From the NCBI GenBank assembly GCA_015055615.1, contig SVHT01000001.1:62001-126000 (forward strand): a stretch of 64,000 nt of DNA, read 5' to 3'. Position 1 is the first letter of the stretch. The number at the start of each line of letters is the position of its first letter. Under the pieces are notes generated by a model that worked only from the letters and a program-made list of their open reading frames with translations, was not told where the DNA came from and made no database searches. This document shows, piece by piece, positions 15,705 through 35,178 of this stretch. Both the position numbers and the translations under genes were made by a program. Source of the DNA: Clostridiales bacterium. Its GTDB lineage: Bacteria; Bacillota; Clostridia; Christensenellales; Borkfalkiaceae.

Positions 15705-18689
15705 ATGAAAAAGAGAATCTTATTGGCTTTGATGGCTCTCTTGGCAGTAACGTGCGTTGCTGGTTGTAGCAAAGACAACAATGCAAACGTTAACGTTGGT
15801 GGCAGCAGTGATTCCATCAGTGGTTCCGTAAGTGGCGACGATTCGTCTTCGGGCGAAGTAGAAGCTACGACGTACTCGTTCACGAAGGTACATAACCCTA
15901 TGGACCGTATGAACGGCGCTACGATTACGGAAGTGGAAGAAGGCGACGCGCTTGACCTTTCTGCACCCGCAGAAGTTGTAGGCAAAGTCTTCAAGGGTTG
16001 GTGCTATGCAGACGGTACGGCAGTTGAAGAAGGTACTGTAATGGGTACGGAAGCTGTTACAATCTATGCAGATTGGGAAATTACGGCTTACACGGTAACG
16101 GTTAAACAGGACGGTCAGGAAGACAAGACGTTCAAATTCGGTGTAGAATCCGATTACGACGATCTTGAAAACCCGATCATCGGCGTTGACGAACTTGCGT
16201 TCGTATTGGAAGGCGAACTTCCCGCAGCGGAAGGCGAAACCTACTACGCATTTGCAGAAGGACTTCCCGAAACGTGGGAATTGCAAGATTACACGTTCAC
16301 GGTTGTTTCGAAAGTAAAGACGTACGTCTTCACGAAAATTGACGGCAACCCTAGAATGGGCGGTGCTGTAACGCAGGTTGAATTGAAAGCAGGCGACGCG
16401 CTTGACCTTGCGGCACCCGCAGAAGTTGAAGGCAAAGTGTTCAACGGTTGGGTAGACGGCGAAGGTAACGTATATGAAGGCACGGAAATGCCCAGCGAAG
16501 AATTGACGTTGTATGCAGATTGGACGATTACGCCGTACACGGTAACGTTGACTATGAACGGCGAAGAGTACAAGACGTTCACGTTCGGTGTAGAAGACGA
16601 TTACAGAGATATTGAAAACCCGATCATCGGTATCATGTCGATTGGTTTCGTTATTGAAGGCGAAATCCCCGAAAATACGGATTTGATTACCTACACGGTA
16701 GAACTTCCCGAAGAATGGGCTTTGCAGAACTACGAAATCAACATCACGAAAGTTGTAGACCTTTCTTCGATTGTTGAAAAAGGTATAGCGGCTGGAGACA
16801 AAGTAACGAACGGTACGTTGGTATCGACGTCCGGTGGATACGTAATTGACGACGTTGCTTACGAACTTGCAGAAAATTATGCGAAACTCGTTGTGAAAGA
16901 CGGTGAAGATACCACCGAAAAATACTTCATTGGTTATGGTGATGACAGCGTTCTTGCTTTGGTAAAATACAGCTGGAGCGAGAATCCTTCTAAGAGCTAT
17001 GACGAAATCAAGCCCGACATGGTAAACGGTTACGCATTTGAAACGGTATTCGATTATGAAAATACCTACTATGGTATTGAAGAATTTGTTTCGGTAATCT
17101 ATTCGTTGGAAGGCATCAAGTTTGCAGACGTAATGGAAGAGGAAGGCGAAACCATTTATAGCTTCGGCGTTCTCTACGTTAATGAAAGTGGGTCCACGTA
17201 CATTGCGTCCGTTGCGTTCACGTTGAACGACGAAGACGTTATGGATATGGTAGCTATTCATATCGACACGTACTATGGTGAAATCGCTGAAACCCCCGAT
17301 CGTACGTTTGATTACATGATTACGCAGGCTTCGGACGGCGAAGTTACCGTTGCATACGATCCCGCAGAAGTATTGGTACAGTCCTATACGCTTACCGATG
17401 CGGAAGGTGCTGAAGTAGAAGCGCTTGACGTAATCCTCGGCGATGAAACGACGTTGAATATTGCAGACGTAGCAGAAACCGCAAACCTTAATTGGGAAAC
17501 GTTCACGGTAACGGTTCTTGACGCAGACAGCGTTGAAGTAGAAGGCGCAGTAGAAGTATCCGTAGATACTTGGAGCAAGGCTATCACCGTAAAGGCATTG
17601 GAAGAAGGCGAATTCACCGTAACGATTCAATCTGCGTTCGTAACGAAAGAAATCACCGTAACGGCTACCATGCCCGAAACGACGGAAATCTATGCTTGCA
17701 CGGATGATTGGGGTTATAATAGAATTGAAACGGCGGAAATTTATGCAGACGCTACGCAGTCTTTCTACGTAAAGGCAAACGCATATGCTGACGCATCCGC
17801 AACGGTTGCAATCGTATCGCAGCCCGAAGGCGCAGAAGCAAGCGTTGAAGAAGTTCAAGGCGAGTGGACGTTCACGCCCGACGTTGCTGGCGAATATGTA
17901 ATCAAGATTACGTCGGACGTAAACGAAGAGCTTACCTGGACGATTACCATTACGGCTAAAGAAATCCCCAACGTTGTTGAAGAATTCTTTGCTTTCAATG
18001 AATATCAGAACGAAGGTAAAACCTTTACGAACAACTGGAAACTTTTGTTTGTAACGGTAGATGACATAACGCAGTTGTTTGCAACGTTCGAAGGTGAAGT
18101 ATACGACCGCAACAGCTGGGAGTGGGTAGACGTTAAGTCGGCAGCATTGTACTTTGTAGATTATAATGCGGAAACGAAGGAAATTGCCTTAACGGCAACT
18201 TCCGCTGAAGATGCGCAACCTGTTATTGACGAAATGGCGCCCGGGTTCACTTTGGATCAGACTTTGATTTCCTCTGTTACGATGAACGATGATTACACTA
18301 TGTCCGTTGCATACGGCAACAACATGGCTGATTTGGAACCTTGGGCAGATTTCGCACCCATTGACTACGTGGTTGGTAACTATGAGGCAGAAGTAACGGT
18401 AGAAGAAGAAACCACGAATTACGCGCTTACCGTCTGGGATGATGGTACGGCTGTACTCTGCCCTCTGATTTACAATGAAATGTGGGATGGCTATGAGCCT
18501 GACAATAAAAATCAGGTATCCTTTGCATTTACCATTGCGGAAGACTTCACGATTACCGTAACGGAAATCCGCGAAGGTCAGTGTGGCGATTTCGGCGTTG
18601 AAACGGCTATTTCCTTCGATAAGGATGCTGGTACGATTTCTATGGTATTGAACGGTCAAACGCTTGTATTTTCTACTGCAAGTTATTAA
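15705..18689 (+). CDS. Large acidic surface lipoprotein with two InlB-type repeats
   Basis: A 994-residue protein with signal peptide and lipobox VAGC (Cys21), then a Ser/Gly linker. Two repeats of about 145 residues follow (near 55-203 and 205-346), each containing an InlB B-repeat-like block (KVFKGW / KVFNGW ... YADW) and a second block ending in the ENPIIG segment. Beyond residue 500 lie Ig-like beta modules (FTVTVLDAD, KAITVKAL) of the kind found in surface adhesins. The protein is strongly acidic. Start: ATG 15705 after AGGAGGAG. It is the last gene before a strong terminator, 51 bp after the previous gene. Binding target unknown. Confidence 0.85.
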   Translation: MKKRILLALMALLAVTCVAGCSKDNNANVNVGGSSDSISGSVSGDDSSSGEVEATTYSFTKVHNPMDRMNGATITEVEEGDALDLSAPAEVVGKVFKGWCYADGTAVEEGTVMGTEAVTIYADWEITAYTVTVKQDGQEDKTFKFGVESDYDDLENPIIGVDELAFVLEGELPAAEGETYYAFAEGLPETWELQDYTFTVVSKVKTYVFTKIDGNPRMGGAVTQVELKAGDALDLAAPAEVEGKVFNGWVDGEGNVYEGTEMPSEELTLYADWTITPYTVTLTMNGEEYKTFTFGVEDDYRDIENPIIGIMSIGFVIEGEIPENTDLITYTVELPEEWALQNYEINITKVVDLSSIVEKGIAAGDKVTNGTLVSTSGGYVIDDVAYELAENYAKLVVKDGEDTTEKYFIGYGDDSVLALVKYSWSENPSKSYDEIKPDMVNGYAFETVFDYENTYYGIEEFVSVIYSLEGIKFADVMEEEGETIYSFGVLYVNESGSTYIASVAFTLNDEDVMDMVAIHIDTYYGEIAETPDRTFDYMITQASDGEVTVAYDPAEVLVQSYTLTDAEGAEVEALDVILGDETTLNIADVAETANLNWETFTVTVLDADSVEVEGAVEVSVDTWSKAITVKALEEGEFTVTIQSAFVTKEITVTATMPETTEIYACTDDWGYNRIETAEIYADATQSFYVKANAYADASATVAIVSQPEGAEASVEEVQGEWTFTPDVAGEYVIKITSDVNEELTWTITITAKEIPNVVEEFFAFNEYQNEGKTFTNNWKLLFVTVDDITQLFATFEGEVYDRNSWEWVDVKSAALYFVDYNAETKEIALTATSAEDAQPVIDEMAPGFTLDQTLISSVTMNDDYTMSVAYGNNMADLEPWADFAPIDYVVGNYEAEVTVEEETTNYALTVWDDGTAVLCPLIYNEMWDGYEPDNKNQVSFAFTIAEDFTITVTEIREGQCGDFGVETAISFDKDAGTISMVLNGQTLVFSTASY
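15870..16745 (+). repeat. Tandem duplication of about 450 bp inside the InlB-type lipoprotein gene
   Basis: Unit 1 begins at 15870 and unit 2 at 16320, both in frame. They stay alike in DNA as well as protein, for example the shared run around GGCGACGCGCTTGACCTT and the repeated AACCCGATCATCGG, pointing to a duplication not long ago or kept alike by recombination. Confidence 0.8.
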
Positions 18690-24670: not shown

Positions 24671-24777
24671 GTGACCTTATCGGGTATCTCCGATACCCCA
24701 AAGGGGTCCCTCGGAGGGCAGCGGTCGTTTGTACTCCCTCGCGCGAACCCTTCGCGTTCATCGTGTTTCCCGATAAG
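24671..24777 (-). ncRNA. tRNA-Glu-derived structured element, copy A (putative)
   Basis: On the minus strand this 107-bp element begins CTTATCGGG and ends CCCGATAAG plus GTCAC, so its ends pair and reproduce the acceptor/T helix of the neighbouring tRNA-Glu. The D and anticodon arms are absent, and the T loop is replaced by a large insert that contains TTCGCGCGAG (complement at 24738-24747), a GAGGG/CCCTC hairpin and a GGTATC/GATACC hairpin. The terminal CCA is degraded in this copy. Whether it is transcribed is unknown; it could equally be a non-autonomous mobile repeat. Confidence 0.5.
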
Positions 24778-24811: not shown

Positions 24812-24856
24812 CTTTTTGGTAACCCTTAACCAACCTAAATCGATTTTTTGGGTGTT

Positions 24857-26026
24857 TTACAAATATTTCTTTATTTCATCGCACATACGGTTATACGTCG
24901 CCAATGCATTTTTTCGTCCACTTTGCACGTATTCACGGCTACGCTGCGCGTCGGTGACCATTTCTAATACCACTTTCGGGAACTTTTCGCGATCTTCTTC
25001 AATATCAAAATTGAAAAGCCAATTTGAAAGACCAATATCTTCGATCATATACCCTTTCGTTGTTTGCTCACGCCAACGCGCTACGATTGCAGGCACTCCG
25101 TTTCCTATACACATAATAGGCGAATGCATTTCGCAACCAAACAGTCCACAACTCTCTTTGTACACGGCAAGCGCCTCGTCGGGCAACCAAAATTCTTCTT
25201 TCACGACCGTTCTTTTCTGAATTTGCGGTGGTAATTTTTCGTAAATTGCACGTTTCCCAAGCGCTATTTGCGAACAATCTTCGGGGCAAATAAAAACTTT
25301 GAGATCGGTGTTTTCTACAATCTCGGTAATGGCTTTACGCAACGGCAAAAGGTCTGTTTCTTCCATTTTCTTATTATACGCGTCACGTTCAGCGTTGTAG
25401 GCGTCACTCTCTTTAATTTCCCAATACGGCGTATAGCGGTTTCGGGGAATACAGCAAACGAATTTACCTGATTCCAATCCGTATTTTTGCATGGTCTGCT
25501 CTGCCTTTACCGTATCCGTAAGGTTATAGGCAAATACTCCGTCACACCCAAAATCCATCACCTTTGCGTGAATACCGTTTTCTTTGGCGTATTGAAGGGA
25601 TTTGGAATCTCTATAATAGATAAAAGCCGCTTTATTAAGTAGATTTTTTTGTTCTTGCAAATGGTCGAGCGCAATATCGGGACCGCAAGTAATCCCAAAC
25701 AACCCAAAGGGTTTGTTCGTTCTCTCGTAAAACTGTTTTACGTCTTCATACGCAACGAAATAGGGAGCAGATGCGTGCACCAAAAAATCGCACTCGTCAA
25801 CGGCAGTAAGGAGTTCTTTTTTGCCTTCTGAAATAGTTCCTTCCACGATTTTAACGTCGGGAAAATGGGAGCTAAGCATATTTCTAACAGAATCGTTTAA
25901 TCTGCTTGCCCAAAGCGTTATTTTTGCGCTTGGAAACTTTTCTTTTAAGATGGCAAGAATAGCAGGGGAGTGTGCAATATCGCCAACGTTGACCGTTTGC
26001 CACGAACCGCGAAGTAATATATTCAT
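24857..26026 (-). CDS. Polysaccharide pyruvyl transferase family protein
   Basis: A 389-residue protein of the polysaccharide pyruvyl transferase (WcaK/CsaB-like) family, which adds ketal pyruvate to surface sugars. Seen are the N-terminal GSWQTVNVGDIAHSP nucleotide-fold start, DFLVHASAPYF, and the C-terminal GCEMHSPIMCIGNGVPAI motif that forms the donor site. ATG at 26026 is chosen from the first conserved residues; AGGAG lies 12 nt before it, a little far. It stands alone, bounded on both sides by tRNA-derived direct repeats, and is somewhat more AT-rich than its neighbours, all of which suggest acquisition as a cassette. The acceptor sugar is unknown. Confidence 0.83.
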   Translation of the reverse strand: MNILLRGSWQTVNVGDIAHSPAILAILKEKFPSAKITLWASRLNDSVRNMLSSHFPDVKIVEGTISEGKKELLTAVDECDFLVHASAPYFVAYEDVKQFYERTNKPFGLFGITCGPDIALDHLQEQKNLLNKAAFIYYRDSKSLQYAKENGIHAKVMDFGCDGVFAYNLTDTVKAEQTMQKYGLESGKFVCCIPRNRYTPYWEIKESDAYNAERDAYNKKMEETDLLPLRKAITEIVENTDLKVFICPEDCSQIALGKRAIYEKLPPQIQKRTVVKEEFWLPDEALAVYKESCGLFGCEMHSPIMCIGNGVPAIVARWREQTTKGYMIEDIGLSNWLFNFDIEEDREKFPKVVLEMVTDAQRSREYVQSGRKNALATYNRMCDEIKKYL

Positions 26027-26056
26027 AGTTTTCAATGTCTCCTTTTTTTCTTCATC

Positions 26057-26085
26057 ATTATATAATAAAAGCAAAATGGTGTCAA
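26057..26085 (-). promoter_or_regulatory. Promoter of the pyruvyl transferase gene
   Basis: On the minus strand TTGACA, 17-bp spacer, TATAAT, a perfect consensus. Confidence 0.9.
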
Positions 26086-26117: not shown

Positions 26118-26167
26118 CGTATAATAAAGAAAAACTCCGAACCAATAGATGTAGTTCGGATTATACG
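26118..26167 (-). terminator. Terminator-like hairpin after element B
   Basis: Outer arms CGTATAAT/ATTATACG and inner arms TCCGAAC/GTTCGGA; on the minus strand the inner stem is followed by GTTTTTC. It begins right after the CCA-bearing tail of element B, again the position of a tRNA terminator. Confidence 0.7.
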
Positions 26168-26173
26168 TTTTTG

Positions 26174-26280
26174 GTGACCTTATCGGGTATCTCCGATACC
26201 CTTAAAAGGGAACCCTCGGAGAGCGTCGGCGATAAATCGCCTCGCGCGAACCCTTCGCGTTCATCGTGTTTCCCGATAAG
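26174..26280 (-). ncRNA. tRNA-Glu-derived structured element, copy B (putative)
   Basis: Same plan as copy A: minus-strand CTTATCGGG (complement of 26272-26280) pairs with CCCGATAAG, and the 3' end continues GGTCACCA, keeping the CCA of a mature tRNA. The 20 bases at 26168-26187 are identical to 26316-26335, which cover the tRNA-Glu 3' end and flanking T run. The enlarged T-loop insert carries TTCGCGCGAG (complement at 26241-26250), then a GGCGAT/ATCGCC hairpin and GACGCTCTC. It lies immediately after the tRNA-Glu terminator. Confidence 0.55.
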
Positions 26281-26284
26281 ACAC

Positions 26285-26313
26285 AAAAAGAAAAGGACAC
26301 CATTTGGTGTCCT
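26285..26313 (-). terminator. Terminator of tRNA-Glu
   Basis: AGGACACCA/TGGTGTCCT stem (26294-26313), on the minus strand followed by TTTTCTTTTT. Confidence 0.9.
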
Positions 26314-26319
26314 GTTTTT

Positions 26320-26394
26320 TGGTGACCTTATCGGGACTCGAACCCGAGTTTGCGCCGTGAGAGGGCGCCGTCCTAACCGCTAGACGATAAGGCC
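26320..26394 (-). tRNA. tRNA-Glu, anticodon CTC
   Basis: Minus strand. Acceptor GGCCTTA/TAAGGTC (one G-U pair), discriminator A and encoded CCA (26320-26322). Anticodon stem GCGCC/GGCGC with loop CTCTCAC gives CTC, reading GAG. T arm TCGGG-TTCGAGT-CCCGA. Its 3' end is the source of the tail sequence in repeats A and B. Confidence 0.96.
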
Positions 26395-26642: not shown

Positions 26643-27680
26643 ATGAAACTGAAAAAATATGAGGGAAACCCTATTTTAAAACCCAACCCCGAAAATCAAT
26701 GGGAAGAAAGATGCGTTCTTAACCCTGCGGTTATTTACGACGATAAAAACGAAGAATTCGTCATGCTGTACCGCGCGGCGGGCAACGACGTTCGTCACCA
26801 AATCAAGCTCGGTTTGGCAACCAGTAAAGACGGCGTCAACTTCGTCCGTCAAAGCGATAAACCCGCGTTTGAGGCAGGGCACTGCGAGCCCGACGGTGGG
26901 TGTGTAGAGGACCCTCGCCTTATGAAAATCGGCGATATGTATTATATGACGTATGCGGCGCGTGCGTATGCTCCTGGGCAATATTGGCTCGTGGAATACG
27001 TCGAAGGCGTTTCCAAAGCGCCTACGTATATGGACGAAACGGACGTTTGCGGTGAGGAATTGCCCGCGTTTGCCAAGGACAATATCACCGTAACCTATCT
27101 TGCGGCAACGAAAGATTTCAAAGTGTTCAAAAAATTCGGTCGTATTACGGAAGCGACGGTGGACGATAGGGACGTGTATTTGTTCCCCGAAAAAATCAAC
27201 GGTAAATACGTTATGGTATCCCGTCCGAAATTCAAAAATGCGGGCGTAAAAATGCCGTCTATTTGGATTTCGTTCGGCGATGACCTTATCGAATATGGCA
27301 AGCCCGAGCTCCTTATGACGGGCGAACAATGGTGGGAAACCCAGCGTATGGGTGGCGGTACGCCTCCTATCAAGACGGACAAGGGTTGGTTTATGCTTTA
27401 TCACGGTGTAGACGACAAGGGTGTGTACCGTGTCGGCGCGGTTATGATGGACCTCAACGATCCCAGAAAGATTATCGCGCGTACAAAGGATTTCCTTATG
27501 GAACCCGAACACGATTACGAAACCTGCGGTATTTACGAAGGTTGCGTATTCCCGACGGGCACGGTAGTTAAGGACGGAACGCTGTACGTTTATTACGGCA
27601 CGGCGGATACGTACATTGGGTTAGCAACGGCAGATTTTAACGAGCTCGTCAATTACTTGATGACGGAATGTAAGATTTGA
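26643..27680 (+). CDS. Glycoside hydrolase family 130 (mannoside phosphorylase type)
   Basis: A 345-residue five-bladed beta-propeller enzyme of GH130. Members mostly cleave beta-mannosides with phosphate to give mannose 1-phosphate; some are hydrolases. Seen are NPAVIYDD near the N terminus, GGCVEDPRL with the likely acid in the D of EDPR, and the GGGTPPI...YHGVDDKGVYRVG blade that shapes the phosphate site. No signal peptide, so cytosolic. It heads an operon with a GH29 protein and an MFS transporter, suggesting uptake of a short oligosaccharide that is broken down inside the cell. Confidence 0.88.
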   Translation: MKLKKYEGNPILKPNPENQWEERCVLNPAVIYDDKNEEFVMLYRAAGNDVRHQIKLGLATSKDGVNFVRQSDKPAFEAGHCEPDGGCVEDPRLMKIGDMYYMTYAARAYAPGQYWLVEYVEGVSKAPTYMDETDVCGEELPAFAKDNITVTYLAATKDFKVFKKFGRITEATVDDRDVYLFPEKINGKYVMVSRPKFKNAGVKMPSIWISFGDDLIEYGKPELLMTGEQWWETQRMGGGTPPIKTDKGWFMLYHGVDDKGVYRVGAVMMDLNDPRKIIARTKDFLMEPEHDYETCGIYEGCVFPTGTVVKDGTLYVYYGTADTYIGLATADFNELVNYLMTECKI

Positions 27681-34327: not shown

Positions 34328-34403
34328 GGGGATATGGCTCAGTTGGTAGAGCGCCTCGTTCGCAACGAGGAGGCCAGCGGTTCGAATCCGCTTATCTCCA
34401 CCA
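34328..34403 (+). tRNA. tRNA-Ala, anticodon CGC
   Basis: Acceptor GGGGATA/TATCTCC, discriminator A, encoded CCA (34401-34403). Anticodon stem CCTCG/CGAGG with loop TTCGCAA gives CGC, reading GCG, the most used class of Ala codon here. T arm AGCGG-TTCGAAT-CCGCT. Its T arm and 3' end are partly copied in the element at 34441-34575. Confidence 0.96.
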
Positions 34404-34441
34404 AAAAATAAAGACAGGTCTTGTGCCTGTCTTTATTTTTT
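34403..34441 (+). terminator. Terminator of tRNA-Ala
   Basis: Perfect 16-bp stem AAAAAATAAAGACAGG / CCTGTCTTTATTTTTT with a 7-nt loop. Confidence 0.95.
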
Positions 34442-34575
34442 GTCGATAACCGAAAGAACCGCTGAGGTGTCAGCGGTTCGCGCGAGCAACGACCGAAAAC
34501 GAACGCTTACATAAAAAAATGAAACTTGTCGGCGTTGCGACGCTCTCGCCATAGGCGAGAATCCGCTTATCTAAC
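34441..34575 (+). ncRNA. tRNA-Ala-derived structured element (putative)
   Basis: Directly after the tRNA-Ala terminator. It contains CAGCGGTTCG (34471-34480) and GAATCCGCTTATCT (34559-34572), which together are the T arm and acceptor 3' strand of tRNA-Ala, split in the T loop by about 78 bases. A 10-bp hairpin (GAACCGCTGA/TCAGCGGTTC, 34456-34479), a long stem using GCAACG/CGTTGC, and TCTCGCC-ATA-GGCGAGA (34544-34560) fill the insert. The insert starts with the same TTCGCGCGAG (34477-34486) and shares GACGCTCTC with the Glu elements. The 5' part GATAACCG can pair in part with CGCTTATC. The CCA end is lost. Confidence 0.5.
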
Positions 34576-34611
34576 ACAAGCGCATGCCGTAGTGCATTTC
34601 ATTATTTTGGC

Positions 34612-34640
34612 TTGATTTTTTAATCTGTCTATGCTATAAT
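34612..34640 (+). promoter_or_regulatory. Promoter of the AT-rich acetyltransferase-like gene
   Basis: TTGATT, 17-bp spacer, TATAAT, 16 bp before the start codon. Confidence 0.8.
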
Positions 34641-34656
34641 TTTTTTGAGGTATATT

Positions 34657-35157
34657 ATGGATTTTATCGTATATAATCAATCTATAAAACGAAACGATTT
34701 TTTATTAGACTATATTTTTAACACGCTGAAAGAAAATTTATCTTTTATATACGGCGAAGATATGATAAATACTGAAAGCCGTCAAAATTGGATAAATAAC
34801 AATCTCTTGAATATAGATATATATTGGCGTATGGTTATAGCTTATAATGAAGATAAGCCTTGTGGGTTTTTAATATATACAATTCAAGATGACTGTTTTA
34901 TAGTCAATGATATTGAAATCAATAAGGAATACAGAATAAATCCTGTTCTTTTGCGTGGCTTATTCTTGAATGCCTTTGTACTCGAAAAAGGAAAATGGAA
35001 TACATTAAGAGGCTATATCAATCATAAAAATACTGTATCAAAAAAGAATTTCTTAAGGTTAGCAACTGAAATTGTAGAAACTGAACGCGGAATTTCGTTT
35101 ACGATAACCAAAGAAGAAATTAAAAATAGATTTTTCATAAAATCTGGTTCGATTTAG
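34657..35157 (+). CDS. GNAT-like protein, AT-rich and probably acquired
   Basis: A 166-residue protein. The order of a short helix pair, a strand WRMVIAYNEDKPCGFLIY, a strand FIVNDIEINKEYR and a helix resembles the GNAT acetyltransferase core, though the acetyl-CoA loop is not clear. Base composition is far more AT-rich than the surrounding genes, with many ATA and AAA codons, which suggests recent transfer. ATG 34657 follows GAGG; an upstream in-frame TTG at 34645 has no site. It lies between the tRNA-Ala-derived element and a copy of the tRNA-Ala tail at 35168. Confidence 0.55.
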   Translation: MDFIVYNQSIKRNDFLLDYIFNTLKENLSFIYGEDMINTESRQNWINNNLLNIDIYWRMVIAYNEDKPCGFLIYTIQDDCFIVNDIEINKEYRINPVLLRGLFLNAFVLEKGKWNTLRGYINHKNTVSKKNFLRLATEIVETERGISFTITKEEIKNRFFIKSGSI

Positions 35158-35167
35158 GTTACACTCG

Positions 35168-35178
35168 CTCCACCAAAA
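35168..35178 (+). repeat. 11-bp copy of the tRNA-Ala 3' end
   Basis: CTCCACCAAAA is identical to 34396-34406, the tRNA-Ala 3' end with CCA and flank. It could be the right border of an insertion at the tRNA, but 11 bp is short. The rest of 35158-35288 shows nothing else. Confidence 0.4.

Follow-up and report, generated by a model that had tools for sequence, protein, structure and literature searches.

The window analysed in this work is a stretch of 64,000 nucleotides from a Clostridiales bacterium (contig SVHT01000001.1), whose genome, designated G000, is a draft of 1.69 Mb with a completeness of 94%. On its minus strand, an intact tRNA-Glu(CTC) gene is followed by a 148-bp unit, copy A, located between the CCA of the tRNA and a terminator-like hairpin. 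The features of this locus and of two related ones in the window are compiled in Table 1.

Table 1. Features of the units, tRNA genes and cassettes in the window.
Feature	Position	Strand	Basis or identifier
tRNA-Glu(CTC), intact, carries the insertion	26320..26394	-	ARAGORN; Rfam tRNA 60.8 bits
Copy A, 148-bp inserted unit between tRNA-Glu CCA and second terminator	26172..26319	-	
First terminator-like hairpin, GGACACC..GGTGTCC	26281..26319	-	sequence reading
P1 5′ arm CTTATCGGG, antisense to part of the tRNA tail	26272..26280	-	
P2, GAAC..GTTC, antisense and sense T-stem 5′ strand	26248..26262	-	core alignments A2, A3
Core hairpin P3, GCG-A-stem / stem-GA-CGC	26223..26245	-	covariation (A3)
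Core hairpin P4, TCTCCGA..TCGGAGA and inner hairpin	26190..26222	-	covariation (A3)
Second tRNA tail copy CCCGATAAGGTCACCA	26172..26187	-	sequence reading
Second terminator-like hairpin, possibly the original one of tRNA-Glu	26118..26167	-	by eye
ORF between copies A and B, polysaccharide pyruvyl transferase family	24857..26074	-	PF04230 3.8e-14
Cassette 3′ end motif M1 TCGATTTAGGTTGGTTAAGGGTTACCA	24817..24843	-	
Copy B; core GGTTCGCGCGAG at 24738-24749	24671..24777	-	own-genome similarity
tRNA-Ala(CGC)	34328..34403	+	ARAGORN
Ala element; core GGTTCGCGCGAG at 34475-34486; T-arm pieces AGCGGTTCG, AATCCGCTTATCT	34443..34577	+	
Cassette 5′ end motif M2 AAGCGCATGCCGTAGTG behind the Ala element	34578..34594	+	G000:C5:96578
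Cassette gene, 166 aa, no Pfam match	34657..35157	+	
M1 ending TCCACCA, like the tRNA-Ala end	35146..35175	+	G000:C5:97146

Anatomy of the unit behind tRNA-Glu(CTC)

Read along the tRNA strand, copy A consists of a terminator, a partial antisense copy of the tRNA tail, the 5′ strand of the T stem up to TTCG, the two hairpins P3 and P4, which constitute the core, and a second tRNA tail with its CCA. The GAAC..GTTC hairpin (P2) ends in GGTTCG and the core CGCGAG..GACGC / TCTCCGA..TCGGAGA comes next; in the minimum-energy fold of copy A, the adjoining stretch is paired instead of P2. The second tail repeats, in direct orientation, the final 16 nt of tRNA-Glu (26320-26335). We found no gene within the 148 bp of copy A, and thus no integrase of the kind expected inside a tRNA-gene island.

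An earlier note on this DNA had described the ends of the unit as pairing with each other, with the CCA kept behind tRNA-Glu, and both ends were indeed located and form a 9-bp helix (P1) in the predicted fold. The 5′ arm, regarded there as a helix strand, does pair, and it is in addition an antisense copy of the tRNA tail, partial in the window and perfect through TGG at loci L094 and L080. The proposal that hairpins stand in place of the T loop was right as to the hairpin core; however, the T-stem 5′ strand and TTCG are retained and the core lies inside the T loop, at TTCG^. Likewise, the D and anticodon arms are absent from the downstream layout, but units of the upstream layout have the D arm and some of them (L083, L078) the anticodon arm too. 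The terminator-like hairpin that the note had placed after the element is present, as judged by eye, and looks like the hairpin directly 3′ of the tRNA in genomes G016, G045 and G072. Its alignment score against G016, 11.5, lies between the 95% (9.0) and 99% (14.0) points of a background that includes identical contexts (tRNA tails of upstream-type loci scored against themselves were disregarded), and the match of the second terminator to the empty relatives is therefore weak.

Elsewhere in the window, a 994-aa ORF (15705-18689) contains a diverged tandem duplication (15930-16183 and 16380-16630, with 74-79% identity).

Copies of the unit in the same genome

Copy A gave six matches in its own genome, with E values of 6.8e-80 (self), 6.9e-49 (copy B) and down to 1.7e-12; its likeness to the other copies goes far beyond chance. 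Identity between copies A and B reaches 98% over 88 nt, and both copy B and the element behind tRNA-Ala(CGC), already pointed out in the earlier note, proved to be real. The insert of the latter is flanked by two pieces of the adjoining tRNA-Ala (Table 1). When one mismatch was allowed in GGTTCGCGCGAG, 25 matches were obtained in G000, and 19 of them are elements, distributed over eight tRNA loci (Glu-CTC for copies A and B, Ala-CGC, Glu-TTC on contig C5, Glu-TTC on contig C8, Val-GAC, Ser-GCT, Ser-TGA and Arg-CCG) and in an array at the end of contig C6. The six remaining matches (L051, L053, L060, L064, L054 and L055) have by eye the appearance of coding DNA and were rejected. One further copy, outside the GGTTCGCGCGAG pattern, was read from the sequence behind Gln-CTG.

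In the upstream layout, the 5′ half of the tRNA is retained and the intact tRNA stands behind it; Val-GAC has three units of this type and Glu-TTC (C8) four. Tandem arrays occur with two periods, 144 at the end of contig C6 and 114 at Val-GAC.

Some other arrangements were observed. A second family of T-arm inserts, with core GGGNGGGAGCCGTTTTGCGGGAGCAAAACGCTTTGCC, is found behind Pro-AGG (L027), Leu-CAA (L034), Thr-GGT (L016) and Gly-CCC (L068), in the last three cases without a right-hand tRNA tail. The tail of the tandem units found at the end of a contig, at L007 (G000:C6:310425-310782), is near that of tRNA-Lys(CTT), and the C6 end and the C5 end, which is near tRNA-Lys(CTT), may be neighbours. 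At L014 (C1 end), a truncated copy of tRNA-Leu(TAA), ending in the anticodon loop, precedes the intact gene, and at L131 (C7 start) a tyrosine recombinase gene lies near tRNA-Leu(TAA); these two loci perhaps represent another type of island, with an anticodon-loop junction.

Distribution among relatives

The exact core pattern was present in 17 of 24 same-genus relatives and in 3 of 16 genomes of other families, and a reversed control pattern in 4 of 24 and 4 of 16, respectively, so that the matches in other families are at chance level. Matches L088, L089 and L090 look like coding DNA. A covariance model restricted to the core and built from four own-genome sequences (R1) matched, at an E value of 0.01, 30 of 41 genomes of the genus, G000 among them. 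Applied to 297 genomes of the order at 5e-4, with strict filters by which weak matches are lost, it matched 13 of 23 genomes of the same family, from four genera, and 1 of 274 others. A longer pattern recovered 101 stretches from GTDB contigs, all titled Clostridia, Clostridiales, Eubacteriales or Borkfalkia save one Acidobacterium match (L194), which was taken as chance and dropped from the count of tRNA proximity described below. One MAG species of Borkfalkia has the core (L173). Three exact patterns searched against viral contigs gave no match each. The bacterial family carrying the units is mostly gut-derived, and the inserts measure about 110-150 bp.

One relative, Lapin-025__bin18, has the core scattered at a distance from tRNAs, within a GTCATTTCGAACG..GAGAATC repeat (L143, L146, L153, L157, L158, L180, L187 and others).

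Link to tRNA genes and position of the junction

The earlier note had proposed a search for further copies beside tRNAs, and many were found. Among 115 pattern-defined elements in 100 stretches, a sample in which the MAGs are not independent and array units are counted singly, 51 have a tRNA on the same strand within 150 nt, on the 5′ side in 46 cases and on the 3′ side in 5. A tRNA on the opposite strand within this distance was found for none of the 115. Random positions gave 2.4%. The tRNAs used are those for Glu, Tyr, Ser, Arg, Lys, Val, Leu and Asp. The 64 elements without a tRNA within 150 nt comprise 16 from Lapin-025__bin18 (all its elements), 15 near the end of a stretch and 33 others; cassette arrays are among the elements without a nearby tRNA.

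The arms of the units were also compared with tRNA tails. Mean similarity to the tail of the own tRNA was 8.85 of 12 in sense and 8.43 in antisense orientation, against 6.91 and 6.70, respectively, for other isoacceptors. The own tRNA was strictly the best match in 8 (sense) and 11 (antisense) of 46, and at least equal to every other isoacceptor in 21 and 20. In G053 (three times), G009 and G011, partial matches to tRNA-Glu break off with the G of TTCG, nt 56 of the tRNA. Judged from the sequences, the core interrupts the T loop at TTCG^; islands of the DsiB type likewise have their junction in the T loop. A restored target with a displaced piece of it, as in tRNA-gene islands, was also recognised, from the tail repeat at 26172-26187, the 56-nt 5′ fragments and, for a unit-bearing island, the L190 pair described below.

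Covariation of the core and the RNA alternative

The core alignment A3 was assembled from 78 of the 101 GTDB-contig loci together with 10 own-genome loci and holds 107 core matches in 88 loci, 101 of them distinct. In this alignment, whose fitting to the proposed structure favours that structure, 92.4% of the core cells are paired compared with 75.0% after shuffling, 17 of the 23 core pairs changed on both sides (410 cells), and sliding of the partner abolishes the signal. Each of the four inner pairs of P3 has 36 to 44 doubly changed cells, and compensatory change is strong in both core hairpins. The earlier note had named a lack of compensatory change in the end helix as a point that would count against it; the core covaries strongly, but the outer helix P1 is only weakly conserved among relatives. 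In the corresponding test, for which 45 of 46 were kept, own 5′ and 3′ flanks reached a pairing value of 7.20 against 6.31 for exchanged flanks, and the own value was higher in 28 of 45. The acceptor 3′ strand and the CCA are absent from several upstream units.

The 2188 core cells include 60 G.T and 39 A.C. A reading of 60 to 39 as an absent strand bias, favouring DNA, was overturned by the counts per pair. Three helix-end pairs hold 17, 12 and 5 of the A.C cells, and the ratio of G.T to A.C becomes 60 to 22 without the first of them and 60 to 5 without all three, an exclusion chosen after the data had been seen and in a setting where the covariance model may favour G.T. From this excess of G.T on the tRNA strand (60 to 5), the tRNA strand seems to be the folding one, and such a bias fits an RNA and a folded single DNA strand alike. 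For comparison, 153 tRNA genes from these loci gave 153 G.T and 25 A.C in the 1836 cells of their acceptor and T stems, a G.T share of 8.3% compared with 2.7% in the core.

These results bear on the possibility that the unit is a tRNA-like small RNA, co-transcribed with the tRNA, with P3-P4 for a T loop and handled by tRNA enzymes, its copies having arisen by duplication of the tRNA region. We consider it unlikely. The strong covariation of the core, the excess of 60 to 5 once the three pairs are set aside post hoc, P1 with its CCA in the window and the location of upstream units, judged by eye, behind a promoter-like TTGAC..TATAAT and ahead of the tRNA would all suit such an RNA, but the low G.T share, the weakly conserved outer helix and the upstream units devoid of acceptor 3′ strand and CCA argue against it, as does the position of the downstream units behind a terminator-like hairpin. 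Furthermore, the only Rfam matches at gathering score in the window were three tRNAs, and a permissive scan added weak, scattered matches, with no RNA family except tRNAs above the gathering score.

Presence and absence at the same tRNA

When the tRNA-Glu(CTC) of the window was used as a query, matches were found in 24 of 57 genomes, which gave 25 tRNA-Glu(CTC) loci. Nine of them have a core downstream and two have upstream units, G053 having both; a clear cassette end is present in four, including G009, which also has an upstream unit, and a weak one in G053. Reading of the twelve untagged loci revealed eight without an element, a variant cassette end in G059, a degenerate element in G015, a locus cut off in G011 and, in G041 (L350), a serine recombinase frame that starts behind the tRNA-Glu(CTC) and is open for 89 aa. 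A common promoter type occurs in 16 of the 25 loci, six with a core and six without an element. On this comparison, in which orthology was judged by eye and not all 25 loci are orthologous, the site appears to be filled in some of the relatives and vacant in the rest, as is characteristic of tRNA-gene islands.

A defined pair was found at tRNA-Leu(CAG). G000 is empty there (L070), whereas L190 carries, exactly behind the tRNA, an island of 1.7 kb that comprises a gene and an element. In the downstream flanks, 49 of 50 bases are equal between both loci, and by eye the ends of the upstream gene are alike too. No exact empty allele of the tRNA-Glu(CTC) site of the window was found among the relatives compared. 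The gene flanking this site (26643-27680) is present in 7 of 57 genomes, own included, and the five relatives' loci that were read contain no tRNA, so that the orthologous site was not recovered by that flank.

Recombinases in the genome and near the units

Large serine recombinase (LSR) genes were located by tblastn with four LSR queries in the collected loci. They lie just 5′ of an element and on the same strand in L119, L185, L197, L208 and L210, those of L208 and L210 being nearly identical, and in L185, L208 and L210 the LSR frame passes through a tail-like TCACCA/GTACCA. An LSR also adjoins tRNA-Glu in G005 (L313), one of the cassette loci read, and a 29-aa LSR remnant was found near tRNA-Glu(TTC) of G000. 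With three queries, tyrosine recombinases were detected in six other element loci (L075, L116, L167, L222, L223 and L331), at about 0.5 kb or less from the core in L116 and L331. These tyrosine recombinases speak against a firm choice; we favour, with moderate confidence, an LSR as the probable mobiliser. G000 itself has three tyrosine recombinases (PF00589); with the integron integrase model TIGR02249, they gave 53 and 48 bits against a cut-off of 265, the third not being listed.

A rather improbable alternative is a palindromic transposon of the REP or MITE kind, the core of which would enter hairpin loops, T arms among them, by means of a transposase of unspecified kind. It would agree with the short covarying hairpins and with the dispersed copies inside the repeat of Lapin-025__bin18; nevertheless, Y1 (IS200/RAYT type) transposases, matched in 21 of 57 genomes of the genus, gave no match in G000, and neither the duplication of a 56-nt tRNA fragment nor the polarity towards tRNAs (51 sense, 0 antisense) would be expected from it.

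Gene cassettes beside the units

Two recurrent motifs mark the ends of gene cassettes near the units. M2 (AAGCGCACGCCGTAGTG, one mismatch allowed) was found in 21 of 57 genomes (reversed control, 3) and M1 (GGTTCGATTTAGGTT) in 28 of 57 (reversed control, 0). The cassettes are bounded by M2 at the 5′ end and M1 at the 3′ end, with M1 inverted (AACCTAAATCGAACC) at the left end. They lie behind tRNA-Glu, once behind tRNA-Ala (L312), or behind the tail of an element (L310), and cassettes directly behind a tRNA, without an element, also occur. The window contains two of them: the one that lies between copies A and B holds the pyruvyl transferase gene, and the one behind the Ala element holds the gene for the 166-aa protein.

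The cassette loci (window 34404-35175, and L308-L319) hold genes of anti-phage, transport and metabolic type. Cargo or neighbouring genes encode TrkH/TrkA, UvrD with HRDC (GajB-like), a DEAD helicase (DpdF-like), PDC-S37, GmrSD, Mrr, GH63, LysR and an ion channel, and DNA_processg_A (ShosA-like) was found at L207, outside M2 bounds. The PADLOC models that matched neighbours or cargo were PDC-S37, GajB, DpdF and ShosA; three further proteins had no PADLOC match. An integron-like system, in which the elements would separate cassettes as attC-like sites and the tRNA would take the part of attI, is very improbable, since, even though genes with M2..M1 ends adjoin the elements and the sites are folded and branched, the tyrosine recombinases of G000 fall below the integron-integrase cut-off and cassettes stand directly behind tRNAs without any element.

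Interpretation

The explanation that we prefer, with a confidence barely above even, is that of a minimal, non-autonomous DNA unit that undergoes site-specific integration at tRNA genes by a recombinase acting in trans at the T loop or 3′ tail. The recombinase, presumably an LSR, would join the unit at this place in such a way that the tRNA stays whole, and a tRNA fragment would be duplicated alongside, the tail in the downstream and the first 56 nt in the upstream layout. Within the copied T arm, the P3-P4 core would serve as a conserved site of recombination that is recognised in the form of a folded strand, and the fold would act in DNA. Units pile up in tandem and have larger neighbours bearing genes, some of them of anti-phage type, and a palindromic T-loop crossover, TTCGAA, could, as a speculation, give both sense and antisense copies. 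Movement may be ongoing today.

The earlier note had offered as one option a non-autonomous element that copies the tRNA tail, and this option is supported by the copies beside tRNAs, the presence and absence polymorphism, the one empty/filled pair of a unit-bearing island, the arrays and the direct repeat; the sequences further show the core structure of the family, its T-loop junction and its gene-bearing neighbours. Against an integrative reading, one family would need to accept many tRNA tails, and the antisense tail copies are unexplained by ordinary integration. The absence of a recombinase from the 148 bp, the 64 of 115 elements without a nearby tRNA, the missing exact empty allele for the window and the limited number of arms that match the own tRNA best also count against it, and the G.T excess would fit an RNA equally. 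We conclude that insertion is supported and that an RNA is less likely. A bolder version, which we hold to be doubtful, is a tRNA-anchored, integron-like capture, in which an LSR would use a folded site rebuilt from the occupied T arm, units of 110-150 bp and defence cassettes would be stacked at more than 10 isoacceptors, and a palindromic crossover would yield both orientations.

If integration at tRNA genes is true, these units would show how small a tRNA-targeted integrative unit with a conserved site can be, and a recombinase accepting many tRNA T arms would be useful for genome insertion. If, on the other hand, the core acts as RNA, it would represent a new class of tRNA-derived RNA. The results also point to a bacterial family whose tRNA ends carry stacks of units and anti-phage-type cassettes.

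Comparison with known systems

The family of miniature tRNA-targeted units is real, and none of the papers listed by our literature searches describes this layout. REP/BIME and MITE palindromes are short, covarying and non-coding. The units share these properties and are dispersed in one relative, but they are tied to tRNA T loops and G000 lacks a Y1 transposase match.

Integron attC sites are folded sites with a variable branched end near cassettes (PMC2727003). The units resemble them in being folded sites with a branched end near cassettes; unlike in attC, their arms resemble the adjoining tRNA, and no integron integrase was found among the three tyrosine recombinases of G000 by the NCBIfam cut-off. 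Islander (PMC4383910) recognises tRNA and tmRNA islands by a regenerated target and a displaced fragment, at the 3′ or, more rarely, the 5′ side, reports tandem arrays, tests for an integrase gene and gives size peaks of 13.6 and 39.9 kbp. Regenerated tRNA, displaced fragment and arrays are common to such islands and the units, which differ from them in integrase gene and size.

The nearest described case that we found is that of the Dehalococcoides tmRNA (ssrA) islands (PMC3146451). There, with the serine recombinase DsiB, the insertion splits the T loop in its middle and the 3′ end of the RNA gene is present as a 20-bp repeat; the islands occur in tandem, some without integration genes of their own, and the repeat is embedded in the recombinase gene. 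The units described here differ from what that source reports in the many isoacceptors used, the gene-free length of about 110-150 bp, the two-hairpin core, the antisense tails, the upstream layout and the putative nature of the recombinase; they share with those islands the T-loop junction, the tail repeats, the tandem arrays and the occurrence of members devoid of integration genes.
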